A stretch of DNA of 64,000 nt from Ancylobacter koreensis (GTDB taxonomy: Bacteria > Pseudomonadota > Alphaproteobacteria > Rhizobiales > Xanthobacteraceae), in NCBI RefSeq assembly GCF_023016525.1, contig NZ_JALKCG010000002.1, forward strand, positions 190,001-254,000. The letters run 5' to 3'. Both the position numbers and the translations under genes were made by a program. The notes beneath the pieces are model-generated. The model was not told where the DNA came from. It saw only the letters and a program-made list of their open reading frames with translations, and did not search any database. Of the stretch, positions 885 to 50,522 are shown in pieces; the first letter of the stretch is position 1, and each line of letters starts with the position of its first letter.

Positions 885-1685
885 ATGACGAAAAGCGGAC
901 CCATCCGGATAGGCGTCGGCGGCTGGACCTTCGAGCCGTGGCGCGGGACCTTCTACCCGCAAGGCCTCGCCCAGAAGCGCGAGCTGGAACATGCCAGCCG
1001 CCAGCTCACCGCCATCGAGATCAACGGCACCTATTACGGCTCGCAGAAGCCCGAGAGCTTCGCGAAATGGCATGCGGAGACGCCGGAGGGCTTTGTCTTC
1101 ACGCTGAAGGGGCCGCGCTTCACCACCAACCGCCGTATCCTCAGGGAGGCGGGCGAATCCATCGAGCGCTTCTTCACTTCGGGCGTCACCGAGCTGAAGG
1201 AGAAGCTCGGGCCGGTGAACTGGCAGTTCATGGCGACCAAGAAGTTCGACCCGGACGATTTCGAGGGCTTCCTCAAGCTGCTGCCGAAGCGCGTCGACGG
1301 ACGTGACATTCGCCACGCCGTGGAAGTGCGCCATGACAGCTTCAAGGCGAAGGCGTTCGTCGAGCTGGCGCGCGCGCATGGCGTCGCCATCGTCTTCGCC
1401 GGCGACAGCGAGTTTCCCTCCATCGCCGATGTGACGGCGCCCTTCGTCTATGCCCGCATCATGGGCACGCGGGAGGACGAGCCGCTCGGCTATTCCGGCC
1501 AGGCGCTGGACGGATGGGCGGAGGCCGCGAAGGCGTGGGCGCAGGGCAGGACGCCGCCGGCGCTGGAGAAGCTGCTCGTCGCGCCGCCGGCGGAGGTCGC
1601 GCCGCGTGAGGTGTTCCTCTTCGTCATCAGCGGCCACAAGGTCCGCAACCCCGCCGCCGCCACGGCGCTCATCGAGCGGGTGTGA
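885..1685 (+). CDS. DUF72 / YecE-family protein
   Basis: A 266-residue DUF72 protein, a TIM-barrel family of unsettled function seen in many bacteria. The N-terminus IRIGVGGWTF-PWRGTFYP is the family hallmark, followed by EINGTYYG, the PEGFVFTLKGPRF segment and a VEVRHDSF block. The family normally has about 240-300 residues, so it looks complete. The ATG at 885 is chosen because CAGGAGAG lies just upstream and the protein then begins right before the conserved core; an upstream in-frame ATG at 777 would add a low-complexity leader. It converges on the histidine kinase gene and their 3' ends overlap by 17 bases. Family call is firm; the function is unknown. Confidence 0.85.
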   Translation: MTKSGPIRIGVGGWTFEPWRGTFYPQGLAQKRELEHASRQLTAIEINGTYYGSQKPESFAKWHAETPEGFVFTLKGPRFTTNRRILREAGESIERFFTSGVTELKEKLGPVNWQFMATKKFDPDDFEGFLKLLPKRVDGRDIRHAVEVRHDSFKAKAFVELARAHGVAIVFAGDSEFPSIADVTAPFVYARIMGTREDEPLGYSGQALDGWAEAAKAWAQGRTPPALEKLLVAPPAEVAPREVFLFVISGHKVRNPAAATALIERV

Positions 1686-3051
1686 CGGGCGCGCGGACGA
1701 CCGTGCCCGTGAAGACCAGCCGCGCCTGCGTGCCCCTCGGCACGGCGCGGGCGATCTCGAAGCTGGCGCCGTGCAGCGCGGCGATGCGGCGGACGATCTC
1801 CAGCCCGATGCCGAGCCCGCCGGCGCGCTTGTAGTGCCCGGGAGCATCGGGGCTGTGGGTCGGATCGAAGCCGATGCCGTCGTCGCGCACGCCCAGTGCC
1901 GCCCCGGCACCGGGCGCCGTCTGCGTCTCCACCACGATGGCGACGCCCGGCCCGCCATGGCGCACGGCATTTTCGATCAGGTTGCGCACCGCGTCGCGGA
2001 GCAGCGCGGCATTGCCGGCGACGACCGGGTCGCCGGAGCCCTCGAAGGCGATGCTGGCGCCCTGCGCATAGACGAAGGGCGCCATGGCGGCCACGATCTC
2101 GCGCCCCAGCTCGTTGAGCGACAGGCGCGCGAAGCCGCTGCGGTCGACAGCCTCCAGCCGCGCCAGCGCTATGAGCTGCTCGACGAAATGGGTCAGCTCG
2201 TCGATCTCGGCGATGGTGCGCCGCGCGGCGGGATGCTCGATGCGCTCCAGCTCCAGCCGGATCACCGCCAGCGGCGTGCGAATTTCGTGCGCAATGGCGG
2301 AGGTGAACAGCTTCTGCGCGTTCATCAGTTCGCGGGTGCGGGCATAGGAGCGGTTCACTGCGCCGGCGAGCTGGGCGATCTCGCGCGGCATGCCGGCCTC
2401 CTCCAGCCGCGCGTCGGGGCTGAGCGAGTCGAGCCGCTCCGCCGCCTGCGCCGCCGCCGCCACCGGGCGCAGCGCTGCGCGGATCGAGAACAGCGTGGCG
2501 CCGAGCACGAAGACCAGCGTGAGGCTCATCGGCCACAGCATGTGGTCGAGCACCTCATGACCGAGCACGGTCCAGACCGCGTGCTGGCTGTCGCGCGTGA
2601 TGACGATCTCGAAGAAGACCAGCCGCTCGCCGCGTTCCACCGCGCGCCCGCCCGCGAAGGCGAGGGGATAGCCGGGCGAGAGGATGCGCAGCCAGAAGGA
2701 GGGCGGGTCGACTTCCAGCGGCAGGAACTGGCGGGCGCAGGCCTCGTCGCACTGCCCGAACAGCACAGCGCCTCCGGCGGTGCGCACCCGCGCCATATAG
2801 CCGGTGCCGGGCGTGGCGTAGCGCGCGGCGAGTTCGGGCGGCAGCTGGTAGGTGAGGCGGCCATTCGCCAGCGACAGTCCGCCGGCCAGCACGTTCGTCT
2901 CGCTCTCCAGCACCAGCTGGGCGAGATAGTCCGGATCGCTGCCATATTCGACCAGAACGGCGATCAACTGGCCGAGCATCGCCAGCAGCGCGAACAGCAT
3001 GACGCGGAGGGCGACGATGCGGCCGAGCGGGCGGGTGGCGCGCGCCGTCAT
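1669..3051 (-). CDS. Sensor histidine kinase (two-component system)
   Basis: Membrane histidine kinase of 460 residues, partner of the response regulator directly upstream. Visible parts: transmembrane helix at about 12-33, an extracytoplasmic sensor region with one CDEAC-type cysteine pair, a second helix at about 165-185, a HAMP-like linker, the HisKA segment AIAHEIRTP with the phospho-accepting His about residue 255, an N-box RNLIENAVRHG, and G-boxes DDGIGFD and GGLGIGLEIV. The ATG overlaps the regulator's stop (ATGA), so the two are translationally coupled. The signal is unknown. Because the operon also encodes a PepSY protein and cytochrome b561, an envelope redox or metal cue is a reasonable inference. 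QseC/PmrB-like is the closest general type. Confidence 0.88.
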   Translation of the reverse strand: MTARATRPLGRIVALRVMLFALLAMLGQLIAVLVEYGSDPDYLAQLVLESETNVLAGGLSLANGRLTYQLPPELAARYATPGTGYMARVRTAGGAVLFGQCDEACARQFLPLEVDPPSFWLRILSPGYPLAFAGGRAVERGERLVFFEIVITRDSQHAVWTVLGHEVLDHMLWPMSLTLVFVLGATLFSIRAALRPVAAAAQAAERLDSLSPDARLEEAGMPREIAQLAGAVNRSYARTRELMNAQKLFTSAIAHEIRTPLAVIRLELERIEHPAARRTIAEIDELTHFVEQLIALARLEAVDRSGFARLSLNELGREIVAAMAPFVYAQGASIAFEGSGDPVVAGNAALLRDAVRNLIENAVRHGGPGVAIVVETQTAPGAGAALGVRDDGIGFDPTHSPDAPGHYKRAGGLGIGLEIVRRIAALHGASFEIARAVPRGTQARLVFTGTVVRAPVTPAR

Positions 3052-3740
3052 GGGCCCGGTTCCGTCCCGGTCTCGCGCAGCAGGTAGCCGACCCCGCGCA
3101 CCGTCTCGATGGCGGTGCGCGTGTCGAAAGGCGCCAGCCGGCGGCGCAGGCGCGAGAGAACCACCTCGATGGCGTTGGGCGTCATCTCGCCGTCGAATTC
3201 GGACAGCTTCTCCTCCAGCCCGCGCTTGGGCACGACCCGCCCGGCATGGCGCAGCAGGATTTCCAGCGCCGCCCGTTCGCGCGGGGCGAGGGCGATGGCC
3301 TCGTCGCCGCAGCGCGCTTCCTGCGTCGCCGGATCGAAGCACAGCAGACCGGCTTCCAGCACCGGATCGGCGCAGAGCGGGGCGCGGCGCAGCAGGGCGC
3401 GGGCGCGGGCGAGCAGTTCGCCATTGTTGAACGGCTTGGCGAGGTAGTCGTCGGCGCCGGCATCGAGCCCGGCGATGCGCTCGTCCACCGCGCCGCGCGC
3501 GGTCAGCACCAGCACCGGGGTGCTGTCGCGGGCACGGCGCAGCCCGCGCAGCAGCTCCAGCCCGTCACCGTCGGGAAGGCCGAGATCGAGCAGCACGAGG
3601 TCGTAGCGCGTGGCGGCCAGCGCGTCCTGCGCCTCGGCGAGGCTCGACACCGCGTCGAGCCGCCAGCCGGCGGCGCGCACGGTGTCGCCCGTCAGTTCGC
3701 GCAGCCGCGCGCTGTCCTCGACCAGAAGCAGCCTCACCAC
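3048..3740 (-). CDS. OmpR-family response regulator
   Basis: A 230-residue DNA-binding response regulator. The receiver domain spans about 1-115 with the acidic pair E8-D9, phospho-acceptor D52 in the LLDLGLPDGDG block, the LTARG threonine and the YLAKPF lysine. The C-terminal winged-helix domain contains the NAIEVVLSRLRRRL recognition region and a terminal RGVGYLLRE, as in QseB/PmrA/CopR regulators. It starts four bases after the cytochrome b561 stop and overlaps the kinase start by ATGA, so the four genes 4595 to 1669 form one transcription unit. It probably controls this operon itself and unknown targets. Confidence 0.9.
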   Translation of the reverse strand: MVRLLLVEDSARLRELTGDTVRAAGWRLDAVSSLAEAQDALAATRYDLVLLDLGLPDGDGLELLRGLRRARDSTPVLVLTARGAVDERIAGLDAGADDYLAKPFNNGELLARARALLRRAPLCADPVLEAGLLCFDPATQEARCGDEAIALAPRERAALEILLRHAGRVVPKRGLEEKLSEFDGEMTPNAIEVVLSRLRRRLAPFDTRTAIETVRGVGYLLRETGTEPGP

Positions 3741-3744
3741 GCCC

Positions 3745-4323
3745 TCACGACCGGCTCCCCAGCGGCCTTTTGCGGCCGGTCACCATCGCCCAGACCAGAT
3801 TCTCGCGGTGGCGCCAGCTCTCGAAGAGGGCGGCGGCCGCATGCAGCAGGGCGAGCACGAGTATGCCATTGGCGAGCGCGCCGTGAAGCTCCTCCAGCCA
3901 GTCTTCGCCCCAGAAGGCGTCGAGCGTCGACATCCAGCCGGTGAGGCAGGTCAGCGCCATCAGAGCCATGAGAGACAGCATCATCGCCGCGCCGGCCGGG
4001 TTGTGGCCGAGCATGCGCGGCTCGCGCCCGCGTGCGAGCGCCCTGACATAGGAGGCCAGGCCCGCCGGTGTCGGCACGAAATCGGAAAAGCGGGCGTGCC
4101 GCGTGCCGACGAAGCCCCAGATGAGCCGGATGACGAGGACGGCGGCGACGGTGTAGCCGACATAGCGATGCGCGCGCTTGCCTTCCTCCAGTATGAACAG
4201 GTTCAGGACGCAGCCGGCGACGACGGTCCAGTGGAACAGGCGCACGACCGGATCCCACACCCGGACGCTGGCGCCGGCGGCCGGAGAGCGGTGCTCCCCG
4301 GTCTGAAGGGCGCGCGGCGCCAT
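3745..4323 (-). CDS. Cytochrome b561-type membrane protein
   Basis: A 192-residue integral membrane protein of the bacterial cytochrome b561/Ni-Fe hydrogenase b-subunit-like family, which moves electrons across the inner membrane through two haems b. Four helices are visible. Candidate haem-ligand histidines are in VRLFHWTVV, the HRYVGY segment, EELHGALAN and the LLHAAAA helix. Its ATG shares one base with the stop of the PepSY gene (TGATG), and it is four bases from the regulator gene. The pairing with a periplasmic PepSY protein suggests a small electron-transfer or reductase module. The electron donor and acceptor cannot be read from the sequence. Confidence 0.85.
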   Translation of the reverse strand: MAPRALQTGEHRSPAAGASVRVWDPVVRLFHWTVVAGCVLNLFILEEGKRAHRYVGYTVAAVLVIRLIWGFVGTRHARFSDFVPTPAGLASYVRALARGREPRMLGHNPAGAAMMLSLMALMALTCLTGWMSTLDAFWGEDWLEELHGALANGILVLALLHAAAALFESWRHRENLVWAMVTGRKRPLGSRS

Positions 4324-4595
4324 CAGTCGATCTCGGCCTTCACGACCGCGCCGGTGACCGGGTTGAAATAGACCTCGGCCTTCTTGTTGTCCTTGGTGTA
4401 GCCGTAGATCTCGTAGCAGGAGCCGGTGACCTTGAAGGTCTTGATCTTCTGGTAGCCCATCTCGGCGACCTTGGCCTGCATGGCCTGCTCGCTCATCCAC
4501 TTGTCCTTCGGCTCGCTGGTGCAGGCCGGGCTGGCGAAGGCCGCGACCGGGGCAAGCACGGAGGCGGCGACGAGGCCGGCGACGAACGTCTTCAT
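4323..4595 (-). CDS. Exported PepSY-domain protein
   Basis: A 90-residue protein: signal peptide (MKTFVAGLVAASVLAPVAAFA, cleavage near residue 21) followed by a single PepSY-type domain with YQKIKTFKVTGSCYEIYGYT and VYFNPVTGAVV. This resembles small periplasmic PepSY proteins encoded beside b-type cytochromes and two-component systems. The start is placed at 4595 because AAGGA lies six bases upstream and the signal peptide begins there; a longer frame to 4646 has a non-export leader. Two cysteines remain in the mature part. It is the first gene of the operon with cytochrome b561, regulator and kinase. It may be an accessory or sensing partner of the cytochrome. Confidence 0.8.
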   Translation of the reverse strand: MKTFVAGLVAASVLAPVAAFASPACTSEPKDKWMSEQAMQAKVAEMGYQKIKTFKVTGSCYEIYGYTKDNKKAEVYFNPVTGAVVKAEID

Positions 4596-4759
4596 CTCGA
4601 TGTCCTTGTTGTACGATCCGCCGTCAGCGGGGATCGACAGGGACATTAGGGAGCGAAGCTGTCCGTCGCCTTTCAGTCATCGAAGGTCGCGGCTCCCTTG
4701 CGCGGGAGGTCGCAGGATTACTTACGAGAGCGCTTCTTCTCGGCCATATTCCCGCAACG

Positions 4760-7132
4760 TTACTTGCTGCCCGACCATTTCCATTCCCGCACTTCCGGCA
4801 GGTCGACGCCGTGCGCGCGGATGTAGCGGGAATGTTCGTTCAGCTTGTCGCGCAGAGCCTGCCGGGCGTGCACCTTGCTGGCGAGCGCCGGAACGCGGTC
4901 GAGCACGTCGATGACGAGGTGGAAACGGTCCAGCCGGTTGCGCACCACCATGTCGAAGGGCGTAGTGGTCGAGCCTTCCTCGACATAGCCGCGCACATGC
5001 ATGTTGTCGTGGTTGGTTCGGCGATAGGCGAGGCGATGGATGAGCCAGGGATAGCCGTGATAGGCGAAGATCACCGGCTTGTCCCTGGTGAACAGCGCGT
5101 CGAAATCCGTGTCGGACAGGCCGTGCGGGTGCTCGGAATGCGGCTGCAGCGTCATCAGGTCGACGACGTTGATCACCCGCACCTTCAATTCGGGGAAGAA
5201 GTCGCGCAGCAGGTCGGCGGCGGCCAGCGTCTCCAGCGTCGGAACGTCGCCGGCACAGGCCAGCACCACGTCGGGCTCGCCGTCTCCATCGGTGCTCGCC
5301 CATTCCCAGATGCCGATGCCCTGCGCGCAGTGGCGGATGGCGGCGTCGATGTCGAGCCATTGCGGGGCCGGCTGCTTGCCGGCAACGATCACGTTCACCC
5401 GGTTCCATGAGCGCAGGCAATGGTCCGTGACACAGAGCAGCGTGTTGGCGTCCGGCGGCAGGTAGACCCGCACGATGTCCGCCTTCTTGTTCACCACATG
5501 GTCGATGAAGCCGGGGTCCTGATGGCTGAAGCCGTTATGGTCCTGCCGCCAGACATGCGAGGTGAGCAGGTAGTTGAGCGAGGAGATCGGCCGGCGCCAT
5601 TCCACCTCCCTGGAGGACTTCAGCCATTTGGCGTGCTGGTTGAACATCGAATCGACGATGTGGATGAACGCCTCGTAGCAGGAGAACAGCCCGTGCCGGC
5701 CGGTGAGCAGATAGCCCTCCAGCCAGCCCTGGCACATGTGCTCGGACAGCATCTCCATCACCCGCCCGTCGCGGGCGAGATGGTCGTCATAGGAGAACCT
5801 CTCGGCGTCCCACGCCCGGTCCGTTACCTCGAACAGCGCCTGCAGGCGGTTCGAGGCGGTCTCGTCGGGGCCGAAGACGCGGAAATTGCGGCTGGCGTCG
5901 TTCTCCTTCATCACGTCGCGCAGGAAGGTGCCCATGACGAAGGTGGATTCCAGCTCCACCCCGCCGGGCTGAGGAACCGCGACGGCGTAATCGGCGAAGT
6001 CGGGCAGGCGCAGCGGGCGGCGCAGCACGCCGCCATTGGCGTGCGGGTTCGCGCTCATGCGTCGGTCGCCCTCGGGCGACAGGGCGAGCAGGTCCGCGCG
6101 CAGCCGGCCGGCTTCGTCGAACAGCTCCTCGGGACGGTAGCTCTTCAGCCAGTCTTCCAGCAGCGTCAGGTGCTCGGGCTTCGACATGTCGGAGAACGGC
6201 ACCTGATGCGAGCGCCAGAAGCCCTCCGCCTTCTTGCCGTCCACCGTCTTCGGCCCGGTCCAGCCCTTCGGGCTGCGCAGGATGATCATCGGCCAGCGCG
6301 GGCGCTCCTCCATGCCCTCGCGCGCGGCCTTCTGGTTGGCGCGGATCGCCGCATAGGCCTCGTCGAGCGCCGCCGCCATGGCCTGGTGCATCGGCTCGGG
6401 CTCCTCGCCCTCGACGAAGATCGGCGCGTAGCCATAGCCCTCGAACAGGGCTTTCAACTCCTCGTGCGGGATGCGCGCCAGAACGGTCGGGTTGGCGATC
6501 TTGTAGCCGTTGAGGTGGAGGATCGGCAGCACCGCGCCGTCGTTGGCGGGGTTGAGGAACTTGTTGCCGTGCCAGGAGGTGGCGAGCGGCCCGGTCTCGG
6601 CCTCCCCGTCGCCGACCACGCAGGCGACGATCAGCTCGGGATTGTCGAGCACGGCGCCATAGGCGTGGCTAAGCGAATAGCCGAGTTCGCCGCCCTCATG
6701 GATCGAGCCCGGCGTCTCGGGCGCCGCGTGGCTGGGAATGCCGCCGGGAAAGGAGAACTGCCGGAACAGCTTGGCGAGGCCCTCCTCGTCCTGCGAGACG
6801 TCGGGATAGAGTTCGCTATAGGTGCCTTCCAGATAGGTCGAAGCCACCACGCCCGGCGCGCCATGGCCGGGACCGGCGATGAACAGCACGCTGGCGTCGG
6901 TCTGGCGGATCAGCCGGTTGAGATGGACATAGATGAAGTTCAGCCCCGGCGTGGTGCCCCAGTGGCCGAGCAGGCGCGGCTTGACATGCGCGAGGGTCAG
7001 CTTCTCGCGCAGCAGCGGGTTGTCGAGCAGGTAGATCTGGCCCACCGAGAGGAAGTTGGCCGCCCGCCACCACGCATTCATGCGCTCGGCCAGATCGGGG
7101 GCCAGCTTTTCCGTCGCCTGCTGCGTGGTCAT
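4760..7132 (-). CDS. xfp: Phosphoketolase (xylulose-5-P / fructose-6-P)
   Basis: TPP-dependent phosphoketolase of 790 residues, the full family length. It splits xylulose 5-phosphate (and often fructose 6-phosphate) with phosphate to acetyl phosphate plus glyceraldehyde 3-phosphate or erythrose 4-phosphate. Recognisable blocks include the N-terminal [30 protein letters not shown], the family signature [14 protein letters not shown], the TPP/Mg segment [20 protein letters not shown], and [21 protein letters not shown] lies eight bases before the ATG. It follows the alcohol dehydrogenase gene by 55 bases on the same strand, so both probably belong to one transcript driven from the FixK/FNR-type site upstream of that gene. 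No acetate kinase or phosphotransacetylase gene is in the window. Confidence 0.96.
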
Positions 7133-7187
7133 GCACCGTTCTCCCGGTCTCGTGTCCTAGGGTCAGTTAGGGCGGTTGCGCGCCGTG

Positions 7188-8171
7188 TCACGGCACAAGC
7201 ACCGCGGCGCCCTGGAACCGGCCGGCGCGCAGATCGGCGAGCGCCTCGTTGGCCTGTTCCAGCCTGTAGGTCGTGGTGGTGGCCTCGATGCCCGCGCGCG
7301 GCGCGATGTCGAGGAATTCCAGCGCATCGGCGCGGGTGAGGTTGGCAACCGAGAGCACCTGCCGCTCCTCCCACAGGATGGAATAGGGGAATTGCGGGAT
7401 GTCGCTCATGTGAATGCCGCCGCACACCACGCGCCCGCCTTTGCGCACCGCCCGCAGCGCCGTCGGCACCAGGTCGCCGACTGGGGCGAAGATCAGCGCC
7501 GCGTCGAGGGCCTCGGGCGGCGTCTCGCCGGAGGCGCCGGCCCAGCGGGCGCCGAGCGAGAGGGCAAGGCGCTGCGCGCCGGCGTCGCCTTCGCGGGTGA
7601 AGGCGTAGAATTCGCGGCCCTGCCAGCGGCAGATCTGGGCGATGAGATGGGCGGCGGCGCCGAAGCCGTAAATGCCCACGCGCCCGGCCTCGCCCGCCAG
7701 CTTGAGGGTTCGCCAGCCGATTAGCCCGGCGCACATCATCGGCGCGGCGGCGACCGGATCGGGAAAGGCGTCCAGCGGGAAGCAGTAGGCGGCGTCGGCC
7801 ACCACATGGCTGGCGAAGCCGCCGTCGCGCGAATAGCCGGTGAATTGCGGCGCGTCGCACAGGTTCTCCCGGTGCATGGCGCAGTAGGGGCACACGCCGC
7901 AGGTATGGCCGAGCCAGGGAATGCCGACCCGCGCGCCGACGGCGGGGGCGACGACGCCCGCCCCGCGCCCGTCGACGATGCCGACGATCTCGTGGCCGGG
8001 CACGATGGGCAGCGGGCCCGGCGGCAATTCGCCGTCGACCACGTGCAGGTCGGTGCGGCAGACCGCGCAGGCCTCGACCCGAACGCGGATCTCGCCGGGG
8101 CCCGGCACGGGCAGCGGGCGCTCCTCGAGCCGGAGCGCCTCGCCATAGGCATGCAGGACCATGGCCTTCAT
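7188..8171 (-). CDS. Zinc-dependent alcohol dehydrogenase
   Basis: A 327-residue medium-chain dehydrogenase. Catalytic zinc ligands are C38 (ACAVCRTDLH) and H60-E61 (PGHEIVG). The structural zinc loop is GVCPYCAMHRENLC, and the cofactor fold carries YGFGAAAHLI in place of the usual GxGxxG. FTGYSRDGGFASHV is typical of the AdhA-like branch that oxidises short alcohols with NAD(P). The start has GAGGTTTTCG in front of the ATG. It is the first gene of the unit with phosphoketolase. Together they could serve fermentative redox balance (acetyl units reduced to ethanol) or alcohol use under low oxygen; this physiological role is inference. Confidence 0.9.
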   Translation of the reverse strand: MKAMVLHAYGEALRLEERPLPVPGPGEIRVRVEACAVCRTDLHVVDGELPPGPLPIVPGHEIVGIVDGRGAGVVAPAVGARVGIPWLGHTCGVCPYCAMHRENLCDAPQFTGYSRDGGFASHVVADAAYCFPLDAFPDPVAAAPMMCAGLIGWRTLKLAGEAGRVGIYGFGAAAHLIAQICRWQGREFYAFTREGDAGAQRLALSLGARWAGASGETPPEALDAALIFAPVGDLVPTALRAVRKGGRVVCGGIHMSDIPQFPYSILWEERQVLSVANLTRADALEFLDIAPRAGIEATTTTYRLEQANEALADLRAGRFQGAAVLVP

Positions 8172-8228
8172 CGAAAACCTCGCGGCGTCGGGACGGCGCC
8201 ATCCAACACGTCATTTGCCGCCCGGGTG

Positions 8229-8242
8229 TTGATCATGGTCAA
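8229..8242 (-). promoter_or_regulatory. FixK/FNR-type binding site upstream of adh-xfp
   Basis: TTGATCATGGTCAA matches the TTGA-N6-TCAA consensus of alphaproteobacterial FixK/FNR regulators. Its centre is about 64 bases before the alcohol dehydrogenase start, compatible with class II activation of a transcript starting near 8194, and about 103 bases before the divergent HlyD gene. Only one such site is visible in the gap. Confidence 0.6.
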
Positions 8243-8338
8243 GACAGGCGCCTTCGATGGGGCTAACGTCCGCCGGCTTGGCGATAGCGGCCTCTCGCGC
8301 GATGCTGCGCACGGCGCGGTCCAGTCTATGGAGGTCAG

Positions 8339-9403
8339 ATGGCAATGCGGCGACGCAGGCCGATCGGTCTTTTCGTGGGAGCGCTGCTGTGCTTCGGCCT
8401 TGCCAGCGCGCCCGCTTCCGGCCCGGTGCGGGCGCAGGAAAGCGCCCCGGCGGCCTCGTCCGGCTTCGGCGCGCGCCTGCAGGCGCTGATCGCCCGGCTG
8501 ACCGGGCGCGGCCTGCCGGCGGGCCTGTTTTCCACCAACGGGCGGATCGAGGCCGAGCAGGTGCTGGTCGCCGCCAAGCTGGCGGGCCGCGTGCTCGCCG
8601 TGCTCGTCGTGGAGGGCCAGACGGTCGAGACCGGGCAGGTGGTCGCCCGCATGGATACCTCCGAGCTGGAGGCCCAGCTCGCCGGCGCGCAGGCGCAGGT
8701 GCGCCGCGCCGAGAAGGCCATCGCCGAGGCCGAGGCCGCCATCGCCCAGCGCGAGAGCGAGCATACCCTTGCCGAGCAGGAACACGAACGCGCCTCCAAG
8801 CTGAAGGAGAGCGGCTACGGCACCGCGCAGGCGCTCGACCTGCGCCAGAGCCAGCTCAATGTCGCGGTAGCCGCGCTCAAGGCCGCCAACGCCTCGCTGG
8901 ACGAGGCCCATGCGGCCGCCGACGCCGCCCGCGCCGAGGTGGCGCGCGTGCAGTCGCAGATCGACGATTCCACCCTCAAGGCGCCGCGTCGCGGACGGGT
9001 CGAGTACAAGCTCGTGCAGTCCGGCGAGGTGGTGGCGGCGGGCGCGCCCATCGTCACCCTGCTGGACCTCTCCGACGTCTACATGACCGTCTTCGTGCCC
9101 GCGCGCGTCGCCGGCCGTCTCGCCATGGGCGACGAGGCGCGCATCATCCTCGATCCGGCGCCCGACTATGTGGTGCCGGCGACGGTGAGCTTCGTCGCCA
9201 CCGGCGCGCAGTTCACCCCGAAATCGGTGGAGACCGCCGACGAGCGCGAGAAACTGATGTTCCGCGTCAAGCTGCGCATCGCGCCCGAGCTGCTGCGCCA
9301 ATACGAGGACCGGGTGAAGACGGGCGTGCGCGGCGTCGCCTATGTGCGCACCGATCCCGCCGCCGCCTGGCCGGAGGCGCTCACCGCCAAGCTGCCGCAA
9401 TGA
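8339..9403 (+). CDS. HlyD-family periplasmic adaptor of an ABC exporter
   Basis: A 354-residue membrane-fusion protein with an N-terminal signal/anchor (about 5-32), a biotinyl-lipoyl-like half domain (AAKLAGRVLAVLVVEGQTVETGQVVARMD), a long coiled-coil hairpin at about 100-210 (QAQVRRAEKAIAEAEAA, KAANASLDEAHAAADAARAEV), the second half-lipoyl block and a beta-barrel. It matches the YhiI/HlyD-D23 type that accompanies RbbA-like ATPases. GGAGG precedes the ATG by four bases; the ATG two codons on is also possible. Its stop overlaps the next gene's start (ATGA). Probably links the inner-membrane ABC pump to an outer-membrane channel encoded elsewhere. Confidence 0.88.
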   Translation: MAMRRRRPIGLFVGALLCFGLASAPASGPVRAQESAPAASSGFGARLQALIARLTGRGLPAGLFSTNGRIEAEQVLVAAKLAGRVLAVLVVEGQTVETGQVVARMDTSELEAQLAGAQAQVRRAEKAIAEAEAAIAQRESEHTLAEQEHERASKLKESGYGTAQALDLRQSQLNVAVAALKAANASLDEAHAAADAARAEVARVQSQIDDSTLKAPRRGRVEYKLVQSGEVVAAGAPIVTLLDLSDVYMTVFVPARVAGRLAMGDEARIILDPAPDYVVPATVSFVATGAQFTPKSVETADEREKLMFRVKLRIAPELLRQYEDRVKTGVRGVAYVRTDPAAAWPEALTAKLPQ

Positions 9404-12108
9404 GCGGGCCCGCCATCGCGCTTTCCGGCCTCGTCCACCGCTACGGCAAGACGCTCGCGCTCGACGGCGTGGAGCTATCGGTGCCGGCGGGCTGCATGGC
9501 GGGGCTTATCGGGCCGGACGGGGTGGGCAAGTCGACCCTGCTCGCGCTCGCCGCCGGCGTCACCCGCATCCAGCAGGGCAAGGTCGTCGTGCTCGGCGGC
9601 GACATGGCGGACCGGCACTGGCGCCGGCAGGCGGGCGGGCGAATCGCCTACATGCCGCAGGGGCTGGGGCGCAACCTTTACCCCACGCTCTCCATCGCCG
9701 AGAATCTCGACTTCTTCGCCCGCCTGTTCGGGCAGGGCGCGGGCGAGCGGGCCGAGCGCATCGAGGAACTGCTGGCCGCCACCGGACTGTCGCCCTTCGC
9801 GGCGCGCCCGGCCGGCAAGCTGTCGGGCGGCATGAAGCAGAAGCTCGGCATCTGCGCCGCGCTGATCCACGACCCCGATCTTGTCATCCTCGACGAGCCG
9901 ACCACCGGCATCGACCCGCTCTCGCGCCGGCAGTTCTGGGAGCTGATGGAGCGCCTGCGTGCCCGCCGCCCCGCGATGAGCGTCATCGTCGCCACCGCCT
10001 ATATGGAAGAGGCCGAGCGCTTCGACTGGCTGGCGGCGATGAGCGGGGGCCGCGTGCTCGCTACCGGCAGCCCGTCCGACATATTGCGGCAGGCCGGGGA
10101 GCCGACGCTGGAGCGCGCCTTCGTCGCCCTGCTGCCCGAGGCCGAGCGCGGGAAAAGCGCGCCGCTGCCGGAACTCACCCCGGTGGTGCATGAAGGCGAG
10201 CCGGCCATAGAGGCGACCGGGCTCACCCGCCGCTTCGGCGATTTCGTCGCCGTCGACCATGTGAATTTCCGCATCGCGCGCGGCGAGATCTTCGGCTTCC
10301 TCGGCTCCAACGGCTCGGGCAAGTCGACGACCATGAAGATGCTCACCGGCCTCCTGCCGGCGAGCGAGGGCGAGGCGAAGCTCTTCGGCGCGGCGCTGGC
10401 CGGCAACGACATGCAGACGCGCAAGCGCGTCGGCTACATGTCGCAGTCCTTCTCTCTCTATGCCGAACTCACCGTCCGCCAGAACCTCGTGCTGCACGCG
10501 CGCCTGTTCGACATCGCCGATGTGGACGGCCGGGTGGCCGAGATGGAGGCGCGCTTCGACCTCGCCGAGGTCGCCGATGTGCGCCCCGAAAGCCTGCCGC
10601 TCGGCATCCGCCAGCGCCTCCAGCTTGCGGTGGCGGTGATCCACAGGCCGGAAATTCTGATCCTTGATGAGCCGACCTCCGGCGTCGACCCGGTGGCGCG
10701 CGACGGCTTCTGGCGTACGCTGATCGAACTCTCGCGGCAGGACGGGGTGACGATCTTCCTCTCCACCCATTTCATGAACGAGGCGGAGCGCTGCGACCGT
10801 ATCTCGCTCATGCATGCGGGGCGCGTGCTCGCCATCGGCACCCCGGCCGAGCTGAAGCGCGCGCGCGGCATGGACACGCTGGAGGACGTGTTCATCGCGG
10901 TGCTGGAAGAAGCAGGTATGGGCCGCGAGGCGGGCGAGGTCGAACTGAAGGAGCGCCCGGCCGTGAGCGCCGCCATCCGCCGCTTCGACGCCGGCCGGCT
11001 CTGGGCCACGGCGCGGCGCGAGGCGCTCGAGATCATGCGCGATCCCGCCCGCCTCGCCTTTGCGCTGATCGGGCCGATCCTGCTGCTGTTCACCTTCGGC
11101 TACGGCATTTCCTTCGATGTCGAGAAGTTGCCCTACGCCGCCTTCGACCAGGACCAGAGCGCGCAGAGCCGCCAGCTTCTGGAGAGCTTCGAGGGCTCGC
11201 GCTATTTCGAGACCCACGCGCCGATCACCTCGCCGGATGAGCTCGACACGCGGCTGAAGAACGGCGAGCTGAAGCTTGCCATCGAGATTCCCCCGAATTT
11301 CGGGCGCGACCTGATGCGGGACCTGACCCCGGAGGTCGGCGTGTGGCTGGACGGCTCCATGCCGTTCCGCGCCGAGACCACGCGCGGCTATGTGCAAGGC
11401 ATCGCCCAGAGCTATCTCGCCGACGCCGAGCTACGCACCACCGGCCGGGCGAGCCCGCTCTACCCGTTCACCGTCGAGACCCGCTACCGCTACAATCAGG
11501 CGTTCAAGAGCGTGAACGCCATGGTGCCGAGCGTCATCATGCTGATGCTGGTGCTGATCCCGGCGATCATGACCGCGCTCGGCGTGGTGAAGGAGAAGGA
11601 GACCGGCTCCATCACCAATTTCCAGTCGACGCCGGTGACGAAGCTGGAATTCCTGCTCGGCAAGCAGCTTCCCTATATCGCCATCGCCTTCGTCAGCTTC
11701 CTCACCATGGTGGTGGCCGCGCGCCTCGTCTTCGACGTGCCGGTGAAGGGCTCCTTCGCCACGCTCGCCTTCGGCTCGCTGGTCTATGTGACGGCCACCA
11801 CCGCCTTCGGCCTGCTGGTGTCGAGCTTCGTGCAGAGCCAGGTCGCCGCCATCTTCGCCACCGCCATCATCGCCATCATCCCGGCGGTGAACTTCTCCGG
11901 GCTGCTGGTGCCGGTGTCCTCGCTGTCGGGCGGGGCGCGGCTGATGGGGCTGGCCTTCCCGGCGGCGTGGTACGAGCAGGTCAGCGTCGGCGCCTTCACC
12001 AAGGGGCTGGGCCTTGCCGAGCTGTGGACCGACATCGCCATGGTGTTCGTCCTCGCGCTGGTCTTCATCGGCCTCGCCATGCTGGCGCTGCGCAAGCAGG
12101 GGAGGTGA
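9400..12108 (+). CDS. RbbA/YhiH-like ABC transporter: two ATPase domains fused to ABC-2 permease
   Basis: A 902-residue fusion. ATPase 1 has Walker A GPDGVGKST (about residue 37), signature LSGGMKQKL and Walker B LVILDEPTTGID. ATPase 2 has GSNGSGKST (about 302), a non-canonical signature LPLGIRQRL and LILDEPTSGVD. From about residue 530 an ABC-2 type permease follows with one helix, a large extracytoplasmic loop and five further helices. The degenerate second signature is usual for this family rather than a lesion. In Escherichia coli the relative RbbA was linked to ribosomes, but the operon with an HlyD adaptor and a second permease points to export of an unknown compound. The ATGA overlap with the adaptor gene fixes the start. 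Confidence 0.9.
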   Translation: MSGPAIALSGLVHRYGKTLALDGVELSVPAGCMAGLIGPDGVGKSTLLALAAGVTRIQQGKVVVLGGDMADRHWRRQAGGRIAYMPQGLGRNLYPTLSIAENLDFFARLFGQGAGERAERIEELLAATGLSPFAARPAGKLSGGMKQKLGICAALIHDPDLVILDEPTTGIDPLSRRQFWELMERLRARRPAMSVIVATAYMEEAERFDWLAAMSGGRVLATGSPSDILRQAGEPTLERAFVALLPEAERGKSAPLPELTPVVHEGEPAIEATGLTRRFGDFVAVDHVNFRIARGEIFGFLGSNGSGKSTTMKMLTGLLPASEGEAKLFGAALAGNDMQTRKRVGYMSQSFSLYAELTVRQNLVLHARLFDIADVDGRVAEMEARFDLAEVADVRPESLPLGIRQRLQLAVAVIHRPEILILDEPTSGVDPVARDGFWRTLIELSRQDGVTIFLSTHFMNEAERCDRISLMHAGRVLAIGTPAELKRARGMDTLEDVFIAVLEEAGMGREAGEVELKERPAVSAAIRRFDAGRLWATARREALEIMRDPARLAFALIGPILLLFTFGYGISFDVEKLPYAAFDQDQSAQSRQLLESFEGSRYFETHAPITSPDELDTRLKNGELKLAIEIPPNFGRDLMRDLTPEVGVWLDGSMPFRAETTRGYVQGIAQSYLADAELRTTGRASPLYPFTVETRYRYNQAFKSVNAMVPSVIMLMLVLIPAIMTALGVVKEKETGSITNFQSTPVTKLEFLLGKQLPYIAIAFVSFLTMVVAARLVFDVPVKGSFATLAFGSLVYVTATTAFGLLVSSFVQSQVAAIFATAIIAIIPAVNFSGLLVPVSSLSGGARLMGLAFPAAWYEQVSVGAFTKGLGLAELWTDIAMVFVLALVFIGLAMLALRKQGR

Positions 12109-12110
12109 GC

Positions 12111-13274
12111 ATGCCCGCGCGCCTCTTTCCCGGCCTTCTGCCCCGCCTTGCCCGCGTCTTCCGCCTCGGCATCAAGGAGCTCTACAGCCTCAAGGCCGAC
12201 CCGGTGCTGGCGGGGCTGATCCTCTATACCTTCACCATCGCGGTCTACACGGTGTCGGTCGGCGCCAAGTTCGAGGTGGAGAACGCCGCCGTGGCCGTGG
12301 TCGACGAGGACCACAGCGCCCTGTCGCGCCGGCTGCGCGACGCGCTGCTCAAGCCCTTCTTCAAGGAACCGATGCTGATCGGCGCCGACGAGATCGACGA
12401 GGCCATGGATGCCGGCCGCTACGTGTTCGTGGTCGAGATTCCCCCGAAATTCGAGCACGACCTCATTGCCGGGCGCACCCCTGCGCTTCAGCTCGACATC
12501 GACGCCACCGCCATGTCGCAGGCGGGCAACGGCGCCTCCTACATACTGGCGATCGTGCAGCAGGAGGTGATGGCGGGGCTTTCCGAGAGTTCCGCCGCCA
12601 GCACATCGGCGGGTTCGGCGCCGGTGAACGTCGTGGTGCGCCCGCGCTTCAACCCGAACCTGTCCTCCGCCTGGTTCACCTCGGTGATGCAGGTGATCAA
12701 CAACGTCACCATGCTCTCCGTCATCCTCGCCGGCGCCGCGCTGATCCGCGAGCGCGAGCACGGCACCATCGAGCATCTGCTCGTCATGCCGGTCACGCCC
12801 AACGAGATCATGCTGGCGAAGATCTGGGCCAATGGCCTCGTCATCGTGGTGGCGGCGACGCTCTCGCTGCTCGTCGTGGTGGAGCGAGTGCTGAACGTGC
12901 CGGTGCAGGGCTCGGTGGCGCTCTTCGTCGCCTCCATGCTGGTCTACCAGTTCTCGGTGACGGCGCTCGGCATTCTGGTGGCCACCGTCTCCACCTCGAT
13001 GGCGCAGTTCGGTCTCATCGTGATGCCGGTGCTGATCGTGATGAACCTGCTCTCGGGCTCGACCACGCCGATGGAGAGCATGCCGGTCTGGCTGCAGAAC
13101 GTCATGCAGGTCTCGCCCTCCACGCATTTCGTGGCGCTGTCGCAGGCGGTGCTTTATCGCGGCGCCGGGCTCTCGGTGATCTGGCCCAATCTTCTGGCGC
13201 TGGCCGGCATCGGCGCCGCCTTCTTCGCGCTGGCGGCGCTGCGCTTCCGCAAGGCCCTGCAGGCCTCGCAATGA
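12111..13274 (+). CDS. ABC-2 type permease (YhhJ-like)
   Basis: A 387-residue ABC-2 membrane protein with an N-terminal helix at about 30-50, a periplasmic domain, and five C-terminal helices, including NNVTMLSVILAGAALIREREHGTIEHLLVMPVTP-type sequence, the family hallmark. It begins two bases after the RbbA-like gene, and GGAGGTGA directly precedes the ATG. The permease half of the fused gene and this one presumably form the heterodimeric channel. Its stop abuts the stop of the convergent flavin-reductase-like gene, with no terminator between them. Substrate unknown. Confidence 0.9.
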   Translation: MPARLFPGLLPRLARVFRLGIKELYSLKADPVLAGLILYTFTIAVYTVSVGAKFEVENAAVAVVDEDHSALSRRLRDALLKPFFKEPMLIGADEIDEAMDAGRYVFVVEIPPKFEHDLIAGRTPALQLDIDATAMSQAGNGASYILAIVQQEVMAGLSESSAASTSAGSAPVNVVVRPRFNPNLSSAWFTSVMQVINNVTMLSVILAGAALIREREHGTIEHLLVMPVTPNEIMLAKIWANGLVIVVAATLSLLVVVERVLNVPVQGSVALFVASMLVYQFSVTALGILVATVSTSMAQFGLIVMPVLIVMNLLSGSTTPMESMPVWLQNVMQVSPSTHFVALSQAVLYRGAGLSVIWPNLLALAGIGAAFFALAALRFRKALQASQ

Positions 13275-20091: not shown

Positions 20092-20694
20092 CTAGCTGCG
20101 CGGGCGGAAATTCAGCAGCTCTGCCGCGTTGATGATGGAAACCGCCATGTCCTCCATCGGCACGCGCTTGGCCATCGCCTGCCGGCGGATGCTCTGATAG
20201 GCCTCCTCCTCGCTCAGCCCCTGGTTCTCCATCAGGATCGACTTGGCCTTCTGGATCTTCTGGATGCCGGAGAGCTTGCGCTCCAGCTTGGCGAAGCGCT
20301 TTCTCGCTTCCTCGCGCTCCAGCCATAGGCTGCGGGCGATGGTGAGGTTGGTGAGCAGGCCGAAGGGGCGGATCGGCCGCTCCACCACGGCGACCGCGCC
20401 CGATTCCAGCACGAGCTGCAGCGTCGAGGGATTCTCGTAGCCGACCACGGCGATCAGGGTCGGACGGCTGTGCGGGTCGCTTTTCAGCAGCCGGACGATC
20501 TCGGCCCGCGCGTCCTGCTCGATGGCGAGCAGCACGATGTCGGCGGCGGGCCAGTCGGCCGGCACCGGCCACGTGGTCTCGACGCTGCAGCCGATGCGGC
20601 GCAGATGTTCCGTGAGGCTGGTGCGCTCCTCGTCCGGCGGGTGGATGACGTGGACCCGCAGGCCGCGCAAATCCTTGAGGATCTGGATCGCCAT
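20092..20694 (-). CDS. amiR: ANTAR-domain antiterminator AmiR
   Basis: A 200-residue RNA-binding regulator. The N-terminal half is a pseudo-receiver domain lacking the usual phosphorylation aspartate set (LRVHVIHPPDEER, VLLAIEQDA). A coiled-coil follows near 125-145, then the C-terminal ANTAR helices: IQKAKSILMENQGLSEEEAYQSIRRQAMAKR. Size and layout match Pseudomonas AmiR (196 residues). It is nine bases downstream of amiC, its presumed inhibitor that releases it when amide binds. Its likely target is the terminator in the leader immediately downstream. Confidence 0.93.
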   Translation of the reverse strand: MAIQILKDLRGLRVHVIHPPDEERTSLTEHLRRIGCSVETTWPVPADWPAADIVLLAIEQDARAEIVRLLKSDPHSRPTLIAVVGYENPSTLQLVLESGAVAVVERPIRPFGLLTNLTIARSLWLEREEARKRFAKLERKLSGIQKIQKAKSILMENQGLSEEEAYQSIRRQAMAKRVPMEDMAVSIINAAELLNFRPRS

Positions 20695-20703
20695 CGCGCC
20701 GCC

Positions 20704-21882
20704 TCACCCCGCTCCGCCGGGCAGGCCGTCCGCCGACCAGTCGTCGAGGCTCTGCACCACGCAATAAGGATCGGGCTTCACCCGCGTGCCGGGGTTCCAG
20801 ACGATCTGGAACTGCCCCTTGGCGTCGAGGCGCGCGACGCGCGGCCACAGGAAGGTGTGGTTGTTCTGGGCGTCGATGCGCACGCGGCCCTGCGGCGCGT
20901 CGAACTCGCTGTCGTGAAGCTGGCTCAGAAGCTGGTCGGGCGCGTCCGTGCCCGCCCTGGCCAGCGCGCGCATGGCGAGGTGCACCTGGAAATAGGCCGC
21001 CTCGGCGGCGGCGGTGACGGGCGCGGCCTCGCCGTTGCGGCGCCGGAAGGCGGCGACGAAGCGGCGGGCCGCGGGCGTCGCCAGCGTCTCGAAGAAGGGG
21101 GCGGCGGTGATGTGGCCGGCCGCCGCTTCGGGCGACATCAGCGCCACCTCGGCCTCGCCGGTGGTGAGGCTGGCGATGGGAAGCGTCGCGGCATCGAGCC
21201 CGGCGGCGCGGTGCGCCTCATAGAGGGTGGCGGTGTCCGAGCCGACGACGGTGGAAAAGATCACGTCGGGCGCCGCCTTGCGCACCCGCGCCATCACGCG
21301 CGCGAACTCCTCCGGGCCGGCGCCGAGCGGGACATACACCTCGTCGAGCACCTTGCCCCGCGACTGGATGACGAAATCGCTCATGATGCGGTTCGACTCG
21401 TAGGGGAACACGTAGTTCGAGCCGATCATGAAGAAGCGGTTGCCATAGGTGCCCAGCAGGTACTTGGCGAGCTGGATCGAATTCTGGTTCGGCGCCGCCC
21501 CGGTGTAGATGCAGTGGCGGGAATATTCGAAGCCCTCATAGAGGGTCGGGTAGAACAGCAGCCCCCGCCCGGCCTCGACCACCGGCAGAATTGCCTTGCG
21601 GGTGGAGGACATGTAGCAGCCGAAAATGAGCCGCACGCCGTCCTCGGCGAGCAGCTTCTCGGCGTAGCGGCGGAAGGATTTCGGATCGGAGGCGGGATCG
21701 TAGACCACCGCTTCGACCGGGCGGCCGAGCACGCCGCCGGCCTCGTTGATCTCGTCGATGGCGAGCAGCGTGCCGCCGAGCTGCGAGGTCTCGACCGCCG
21801 CCGTCACCCCGGTGGCGGAGAACAGCACCCCGATGCGCCAGGGCCGCGCGGACGAACTGCCCACCGAAGAATCGAACGTCAT
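20704..21882 (-). CDS. amiC: Amide-sensing negative regulator AmiC
   Basis: A 392-residue protein with the type I periplasmic-binding fold but no signal peptide, as expected for AmiC, which holds AmiR inactive in the cytoplasm until amide binds. Blocks shared with Pseudomonas AmiC include GCYMSSTRKAILPVVE, YEGFEYS, APNQNS, VFSTVVG, PIASLTTGEAEVA and the C-terminal DPYCVVQSLDDWSA. The ATG at 21882 gives the length nearest the 385-residue relative; an in-frame ATG at 21912 has no ribosome site. The order amiC-amiR-amiE is the reverse of the Pseudomonas order, in which amiE comes first. Confidence 0.92.
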   Translation of the reverse strand: MTFDSSVGSSSARPWRIGVLFSATGVTAAVETSQLGGTLLAIDEINEAGGVLGRPVEAVVYDPASDPKSFRRYAEKLLAEDGVRLIFGCYMSSTRKAILPVVEAGRGLLFYPTLYEGFEYSRHCIYTGAAPNQNSIQLAKYLLGTYGNRFFMIGSNYVFPYESNRIMSDFVIQSRGKVLDEVYVPLGAGPEEFARVMARVRKAAPDVIFSTVVGSDTATLYEAHRAAGLDAATLPIASLTTGEAEVALMSPEAAAGHITAAPFFETLATPAARRFVAAFRRRNGEAAPVTAAAEAAYFQVHLAMRALARAGTDAPDQLLSQLHDSEFDAPQGRVRIDAQNNHTFLWPRVARLDAKGQFQIVWNPGTRVKPDPYCVVQSLDDWSADGLPGGAG

Positions 21883-21963
21883 GCCCGCAACGCACTCCGG
21901 CACCCGAACCACATGCGGACCATGTGGACGGGCGGGCGCAAGGCGCGCAATACGGCGTTTGCC

Positions 21964-50032: not shown

Positions 50033-50127
50033 GGCGGTTCGCTCCTTGCGCGGAAGAGGGGAGCGCAGCAGTAGCAAAGCGCCCGCGCCTGCGCCATGCA
50101 CGGCGAGCGCGGGACAGCGCGGGGAAG

Positions 50128-50522
50128 GTGCCAGCCGGCCTGTAAGCCGGGTTCTGTATGGCGGGATTTCTCCCACGTGACGGCCATTCCTCTGGGACGC
50201 CGGTTGCCCGGCGCCTCGAGCAGTCAACCCGGGCGGCTGTCCGAAGACGGGACCTGAAGCAGAGCCATCTCTGGCCGCCTCGCGCCACCCCTATACGACT
50301 TTGCTCCCGGTGGGGTTTGCCGTGCCGCTTCCGTTGCCGGACGCGCGGTGCGCTCTTACCGCACCGTTTCACCCTTGCCGCGGGCGAACCCGAGGCGGTC
50401 TGATTTCTGTGGCACTTTCCCTGGGGTCGCCCCCGCCGGACGTTATCCGGCACCGTGTCTCCGTGGAGCCCGGACTTTCCTCGGCGTCCTTGCGGACGAC
50501 GCGGCCGTCCGGCCGGCTGGCG
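50128..50522 (-). ncRNA. rnpB: RNase P RNA (bacterial class A)
   Basis: The catalytic RNA of RNase P, about 395 bases, removing 5' leaders from tRNA precursors. On the minus strand the conserved core GAGGAAAGTCCGGGCTCC (near the 5' end), the ACAGAAATCAGACC segment, and a 3' end with AGAACCCGGCTTACAGGCC are all visible. The terminal helix P1 pairs CCAGCCGGCC (50520-50511) with GGCCGGCTGG (50140-50131) perfectly. End points are therefore good to within a few bases. Lies between the transglycosylase and dapB genes, on the same strand as both. Confidence 0.95.

Follow-up and report, generated by a model that had tools for sequence, protein, structure and literature searches.

In Bradyrhizobium diazoefficiens, deletion of fixK2 decreased the expression of the phosphoketolase gene bll2518 by 10.0-fold and that of the acetate kinase gene bll2517 by 10.2-fold, and a FixK2 box is listed at -89 (PMC9104804); bll2518 was furthermore increased in microoxia (PMC6515984). 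A fixK mutant of R. palustris showed a 9.4-fold decrease of phosphoketolase on Fe(II) (PMC3050613), and Table 1 of Dufour et al. (2010) includes a phosphoketolase, a zinc-binding alcohol dehydrogenase, HlyD and ABC subunits in the predicted FixK regulon (PMC2908626). Here, a FixK/FNR-type box, TTGATCATGGTCAA, is described in a 64,000-nucleotide stretch of the 4.06 Mb genome of Ancylobacter koreensis (the window; G000:C12:190001-254000). It lies between the leftward operon adh-xfp, encoding a zinc-binding alcohol dehydrogenase and a xylulose-5-phosphate/fructose-6-phosphate phosphoketolase, and the rightward operon hlyD-rbbA-yhhJ, encoding an export system (Table 1). We consider it highly probable that this divergent promoter contains, with the box, a FixK site from which FixK activates both operons at low oxygen, and a FixK-driven induction of adh-xfp at low oxygen appears very likely.

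Compared to the bll2518-bll2517 operon, with its FixK2-dependent phosphoketolase, listed box and microoxic induction, the locus described here likewise has a box, while FixK dependence and microoxic induction are predicted for it. The two loci differ in that the Bradyrhizobium operon comprises the box TTGACCTCACGCAA and an acetate kinase as partner, while a full TTGA-N6-TCAA, a zinc alcohol dehydrogenase and hlyD-rbbA-yhhJ are found here (PMC9104804, PMC6515984). The regulon of Dufour et al. contains the same kinds of proteins; however, it is best defined for Nitrobacter, Bradyrhizobium and Rhodopseudomonas, and in the part of that source used here no arrangement around a single shared box is described (PMC2908626). 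Since phosphoketolase occurs in both predicted and experimentally supported FixK regulons, the claim of the first-pass annotation, which had been made from the sequence alone, that the link is unusual finds no support (PMC2908626, PMC9104804, PMC3050613). For relatives, FixK control of phosphoketolase had been predicted before and in part demonstrated, so that the present locus adds a well-supported example and comes as no surprise. New are the shared divergent box, a dehydrogenase in the place of acetate kinase as partner, the variant box upstream of pta-ackA and, in the enzyme, a complete motif for the sensing of adenosine triphosphate (ATP). A literature search on Ancylobacter with phosphoketolase yielded no publication.

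The window contains a single match to TTGA-N6-TCAA, which agrees in position and pattern with the first-pass annotation, and the adh-xfp operon was likewise found as proposed, with 55 nucleotides between the genes. The start codon of adh is located 57 nucleotides beyond one end of the box and that of hlyD 96 nucleotides beyond the other; the export operon on this side, faced by the same box, had been overlooked. Xfp is a full-length phosphoketolase with the domains XFP_N, XFP and XFP_C, and the nearest named phosphoketolase among the matches listed is that of Ancylobacter moscoviensis (88% identical).

The mere presence of the box is weak evidence, since at least one such site occurred in 15 of 100 shuffled windows (0.16 expected per window). 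The loose pattern was also not enriched in the whole genome, with 16 places compared to 14 for the reversed control, and these two counts alone would not exclude a functionless chance palindrome. The tighter pattern TTGAYN4RTCAA was enriched, with nine places, among them TTGATCATGGTCAA, compared to two for the control, and across the genus 8 to 24 matches per genome were found compared to 0 to 5. At such low numbers, a random match is unlikely to fall in any one particular promoter.

The conservation of the box, which the first-pass annotation had named as the check to be made, was determined in 30 genomes of the Ancylobacter-like genus. In 27 of them, 29 phosphoketolase loci were found and fetched with their surroundings, comprising 25 orthologous copies (82-100% identical) and four divergent ones (64-70%); one copy (L188) is split over two frames, and two weak matches (G123:C2 and G102:C46, 29% identity; one shown as L079) were not counted as xfp. 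The exact TTGA-N6-TCAA precedes adh-xfp, or xfp where adh is missing, at 23 of the 29 loci, corresponding to 23 of the 25 orthologues, while it is absent from the promoters of all four divergent copies. The remaining two orthologues (L180 and L183) showed a one-mismatch site instead. Both sites are weak, since the scan, made for these two loci only, covered 700 nucleotides with about 0.26 chance sites per stretch by our own estimate. L183 also has an exact box, on the far side of a divergent CRP/FNR gene; it was left out of the 23, but included in the analysis of offsets with 24 loci described below. At four loci without adh (L167, L175, L179 and L184), the box directly precedes xfp; altogether, adh lies upstream of xfp at 19 of the 29 loci. 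The box thus keeps a defined place, although its N6 core varies and the flanking sequences have diverged. On this ground a chance origin was rejected, and its probability is regarded as negligible.

The genome encodes, in consecutive genes, a PAS histidine kinase of the FixL type, a LuxR-type response regulator of the FixJ type, a receiver-only protein and FixK. The searches gave domain families, and the names FixL and FixJ, as well as ccoN below, are what we take these genes to be from reading of the sequence. FixK aligns to FixK2 of B. diazoefficiens (4i2o) with an E-value of 5.3e-31, and the segment LGLTLETVSRA, comprising the ETVSR recognition helix, is identical. FixK is present with at least 77% identity in 26 of the 30 genomes, while the best relatives reach 33-39% in G101, G104 and G117 and none was found in G108. 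As G101, G104 and G117 contain an orthologous xfp, in two of them (G101 and G117) with the exact box, control through this site would require a different CRP/FNR protein in these genomes. An FNR-, DNR- or CRP-like protein binding the site in response to a signal other than FixL-sensed oxygen is nevertheless quite unlikely in the present genome, in which only two proteins passed the HTH_Crp_2 cut-off, namely FixK and a second protein, in which the recognition helix (GVGRSYISRVI) is without the ETVSR motif.

The assignment as a FixK-type site, put forward by the first-pass annotation, is thus supported by the conservation and by the encoded FixL-FixJ-FixK, and furthermore by the tight boxes that precede genes for a COX1-family protein (read as ccoN), a universal stress protein (uspA) and an OmpW protein. 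The OmpW site, TTGATCGAGATCAA (L007, G000:C12:489538), precedes a gene of a family named as target in published FNR/FixK regulons (PMC2908626, PMC3050613). Another tight box, TTGATCCTCATCAA (L009, G000:C15:225975), falls within a cytochrome oxidase subunit II frame, near its 5' end; an identical 14-mer is found in G100, and the site possibly reflects oxygen-linked control of an oxidase. For the remaining tight boxes of the nine, no obvious low-oxygen gene was seen. One site, TTGATCTCGATCAA (L006, G000:C12:389947), precedes a ferredoxin-reductase-type gene beside a frame that reads as Rieske-oxygenase-like; both G100 and G102 contain its 14-mer at least once, and it may be used by another regulator.

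The position of hlyD raises the question of which operon the box serves. A site serving chiefly the export operon, with adh-xfp merely adjacent, would be consistent with hlyD facing the box within about 300 nucleotides at 16 of the 29 loci and with HlyD and ABC genes being predicted FixK targets (PMC2908626). Furthermore, at L181 and L182 hlyD-rbbA is located elsewhere and has its own box upstream. On the other hand, xfp is the constant partner of the box: at seven exact-box loci the divergent neighbour is not hlyD, and the box is still found before adh-xfp or xfp. In five of these (L176, L177, L178, L181 and L182) an AdhP-like dehydrogenase takes the place of hlyD (89-100% identical to the L181 protein, for which Pfam was used), in L179 an amino-acid permease and in L184 a small membrane protein (by reading). 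An export operon as the chief target is therefore improbable. Since hlyD-rbbA has a separate box where the two operons lie apart, it is most likely that adh-xfp and hlyD-rbbA-yhhJ are both FixK targets.

FixK2 uses class II promoters, in which the centre of the box lies near -41.5 of the transcript start. For the adh promoter, a class II placement, as suggested by the first-pass annotation, is plausible: in 10 of 14 related hlyD-adjacent loci, the hexamer TTGGAT follows the box at 22 nucleotides, which is the spacing expected for a centre at -41.5, and the same offset gave the best mean match to TATAAT over all 24 loci (2.5 of 6). Given weak hexamer matches among related loci, the geometry is not taken further than this. 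On the hlyD side, CTA occurs 20 nucleotides off the box in 17 of the 24 loci, with the best TATAAT offset at 19 in the 14-locus set and at 21 in the rest.

Table 1. Features at the adh-xfp/hlyD-rbbA-yhhJ locus (window positions) and the variant box at pta-ackA
Feature	Position	Strand	Remarks
FixK/FNR-type box TTGATCATGGTCAA	8229..8242	.	faces two divergent operons; exact box in 23/29 genus xfp loci
TTGGAT, inferred -10-like hexamer	8201..8206	-	22 nt (nucleotides) after box, adh side; 10/14 loci
CTAACG, candidate -10-like hexamer	8263..8268	+	20 nt after box, hlyD side; CTA in 17/24 loci
adh, zinc-binding alcohol dehydrogenase	7188..8171	-	first gene of operon; TIGR02822 adh_fam_2, 343.6 bits (cut-off 283.5); ADH_N
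xfp, xylulose-5-phosphate/fructose-6-phosphate phosphoketolase	4760..7132	-	790 amino acids; ATP-regulatory motif at residues 695-746
PepSY_2 protein	4323-4646	-	conserved neighbour downstream of xfp
Cytochrome b561	3745-4500	-	conserved neighbour downstream of xfp
OmpR-type response regulator	3048-3740	-	conserved neighbour downstream of xfp
hlyD-type periplasmic adaptor	8339..9403	+	divergent from adh
rbbA-type double ABC ATPase/permease	9400..12108	+	NF033858, 1450.8 bits (cut-off 1050)
yhhJ-type ABC-2 permease	12111..13274, start approximate	+	ABC2_membrane_3 within open reading frame 11343-13274; gene order conserved
Variant box TTGATCCCGCGCAA	L221 3737-3750 (G000:C17)		upstream of pta-ackA

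At 13 of the 29 loci, as in the window (1669-4646), xfp is followed by genes for PepSY_2, cytochrome b561 and a two-component regulator and kinase in this order. Elsewhere in the window, an AmiR/ANTAR regulator adjoins a UrtA-like binding protein, resembling the AmiC-AmiR pair (20092-21912), and a bacterial class A RNase P RNA is found on the minus strand (50127-50520).

The best 80 of at least 80 named xfp loci listed were compared as well, five of which hold less than 350 nucleotides upstream. An exact box within 350 nucleotides upstream of xfp was found in two of them (L081 and L083), and a third (L080) showed an exact box before adh-xfp; all three are alphaproteobacterial. The idea of an FNR box as a general feature of bacterial phosphoketolase genes is therefore unsupported. 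The whole loci (3.6-14.4 kilobases) contained 45 exact sites compared to five for the control, mostly away from xfp. In two alphaproteobacterial loci (L082 and L151), the exact box precedes a neighbouring adh. In the former, from Bradyrhizobium sp. dw_78, the box is flanked by a member of this adh family and by an Hsp20 gene; a CBS-BON gene, xfp and a gene of the ATP-synthase type are found in the vicinity. Of the 30 best loci compared for the adh family, 10 showed an exact box within 400 nucleotides upstream (control 0 of 30), and three of these 10 belong to this genus. Among 20 xfp loci of the family outside the genus, taken from a longer list, four had an exact box within 350 nucleotides (control 0) and nine a box with up to one mismatch (control 1), while the ATP motif, with lysine allowed, was found in three. 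Three family loci (L265, L268 and L270) comprise the box TTGACCTCACGCAA with acetate kinase downstream and thus the Bradyrhizobium arrangement.

Based on these data, the following sequence of events can be proposed. When oxygen is low, FixJ phosphorylated by FixL would switch on fixK, the product of which would bind the box and activate adh-xfp leftwards and hlyD-rbbA-yhhJ rightwards from one site. Cleavage of xylulose-5-phosphate or fructose-6-phosphate by phosphoketolase would then yield, at no redox expense, acetyl-phosphate that acetate kinase could convert to ATP under limited respiration. The role in the disposal of reducing equivalents that the first-pass annotation had given to the dehydrogenase is putative and unproven; in the stretch fetched, adh is missing from 6 of the 25 orthologous xfp loci. 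The genome contains one acetate kinase gene and two phosphotransacetylase-family matches, one of them directly before ackA. No exact TTGA-N6-TCAA was found within 1.5 kilobases of ackA in this genome, and pta-ackA has a variant box of its own: TTGC-N6-TCAA occurs 1067-1118 nucleotides before ackA, upstream of pta, in nine of the 30 genomes including this one, compared to 0 of 30 for the control. This is the same half-site variant as in the FixK2 box of bll2518 (PMC9104804).

Several observations weigh against this interpretation, in addition to the three genomes with an orthologous xfp and no close FixK. FixK binding, the direction of the effect, the oxygen response, the flux and the substrate chemistry of the dehydrogenase are all inferred in this organism. 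G062, G113 and G118 contain FixK and only divergent, box-less copies of xfp. As -10 elements the hexamers are poor, TTGGAT matching TATAAT at three of six positions, and in the 10 loci outside the 14-locus set an offset of 41 was slightly better than 22. The variant box at ackA, found in a search made post hoc, is absent from 21 of the 30 genomes. In the relatives, bll2518 is not marked as a direct FixK2 target in the part of the source used here (PMC6515984), and the decrease of phosphoketolase in R. palustris was clear in one of six conditions only (PMC3050613).

A second level of control is suggested by the enzyme itself. The ATP-inhibition motif of phosphoketolase, PWX2HX3YRX7HXRX31R (PMC10365998), is complete in Xfp, and the best PDB match of the protein is 8io8 (1196.6 bits), the ATP-sensing enzyme of Synechococcus elongatus. 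Both enzymes share the same eight-residue ATP motif, which is known here from the sequence, whereas an ATP control of carbon fixation was demonstrated in S. elongatus and no low-oxygen regulator is described in the part of that source used here (PMC10365998). In the strict form, the motif occurs in 89 of the 108 phosphoketolase copies compared, from which one copy without C-terminal match (L158) was excluded. Among the 29 copies of the genus, 22 showed the strict motif and three a lysine in place of arginine, so that all 25 orthologues carry it, while the four divergent copies lack both the motif and the box.

RuBisCO-family genes were found in all 30 genomes of the genus. A complete ATP-sensing motif would permit a two-layer control, by oxygen and by ATP, in a RuBisCO-bearing bacterium. 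A more far-reaching and rather doubtful possibility is that phosphoketolase acts as a brake of the Calvin cycle gated by oxygen and energy: FixK would cause the enzyme to be made as oxygen falls, the ATP site would release it as ATP falls, and xylulose-5-phosphate would be diverted from the regeneration of ribulose bisphosphate into acetyl-phosphate, from which the partly co-regulated Pta-AckA would form ATP.

Altogether, the finding extends the FixK control of phosphoketolase to RuBisCO-bearing Ancylobacter-like bacteria, with a dehydrogenase at the place where Bradyrhizobium-type loci have acetate kinase and with one conserved box seen facing two operons. The combination of FixK control with an ATP-sensing motif in a RuBisCO-bearing bacterium is the most interesting remaining point. 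Should the ATP motif function as it does in cyanobacteria, a single enzyme would combine the sensing of oxygen and of energy at the point where carbon fixation and acetyl-phosphate formation part.
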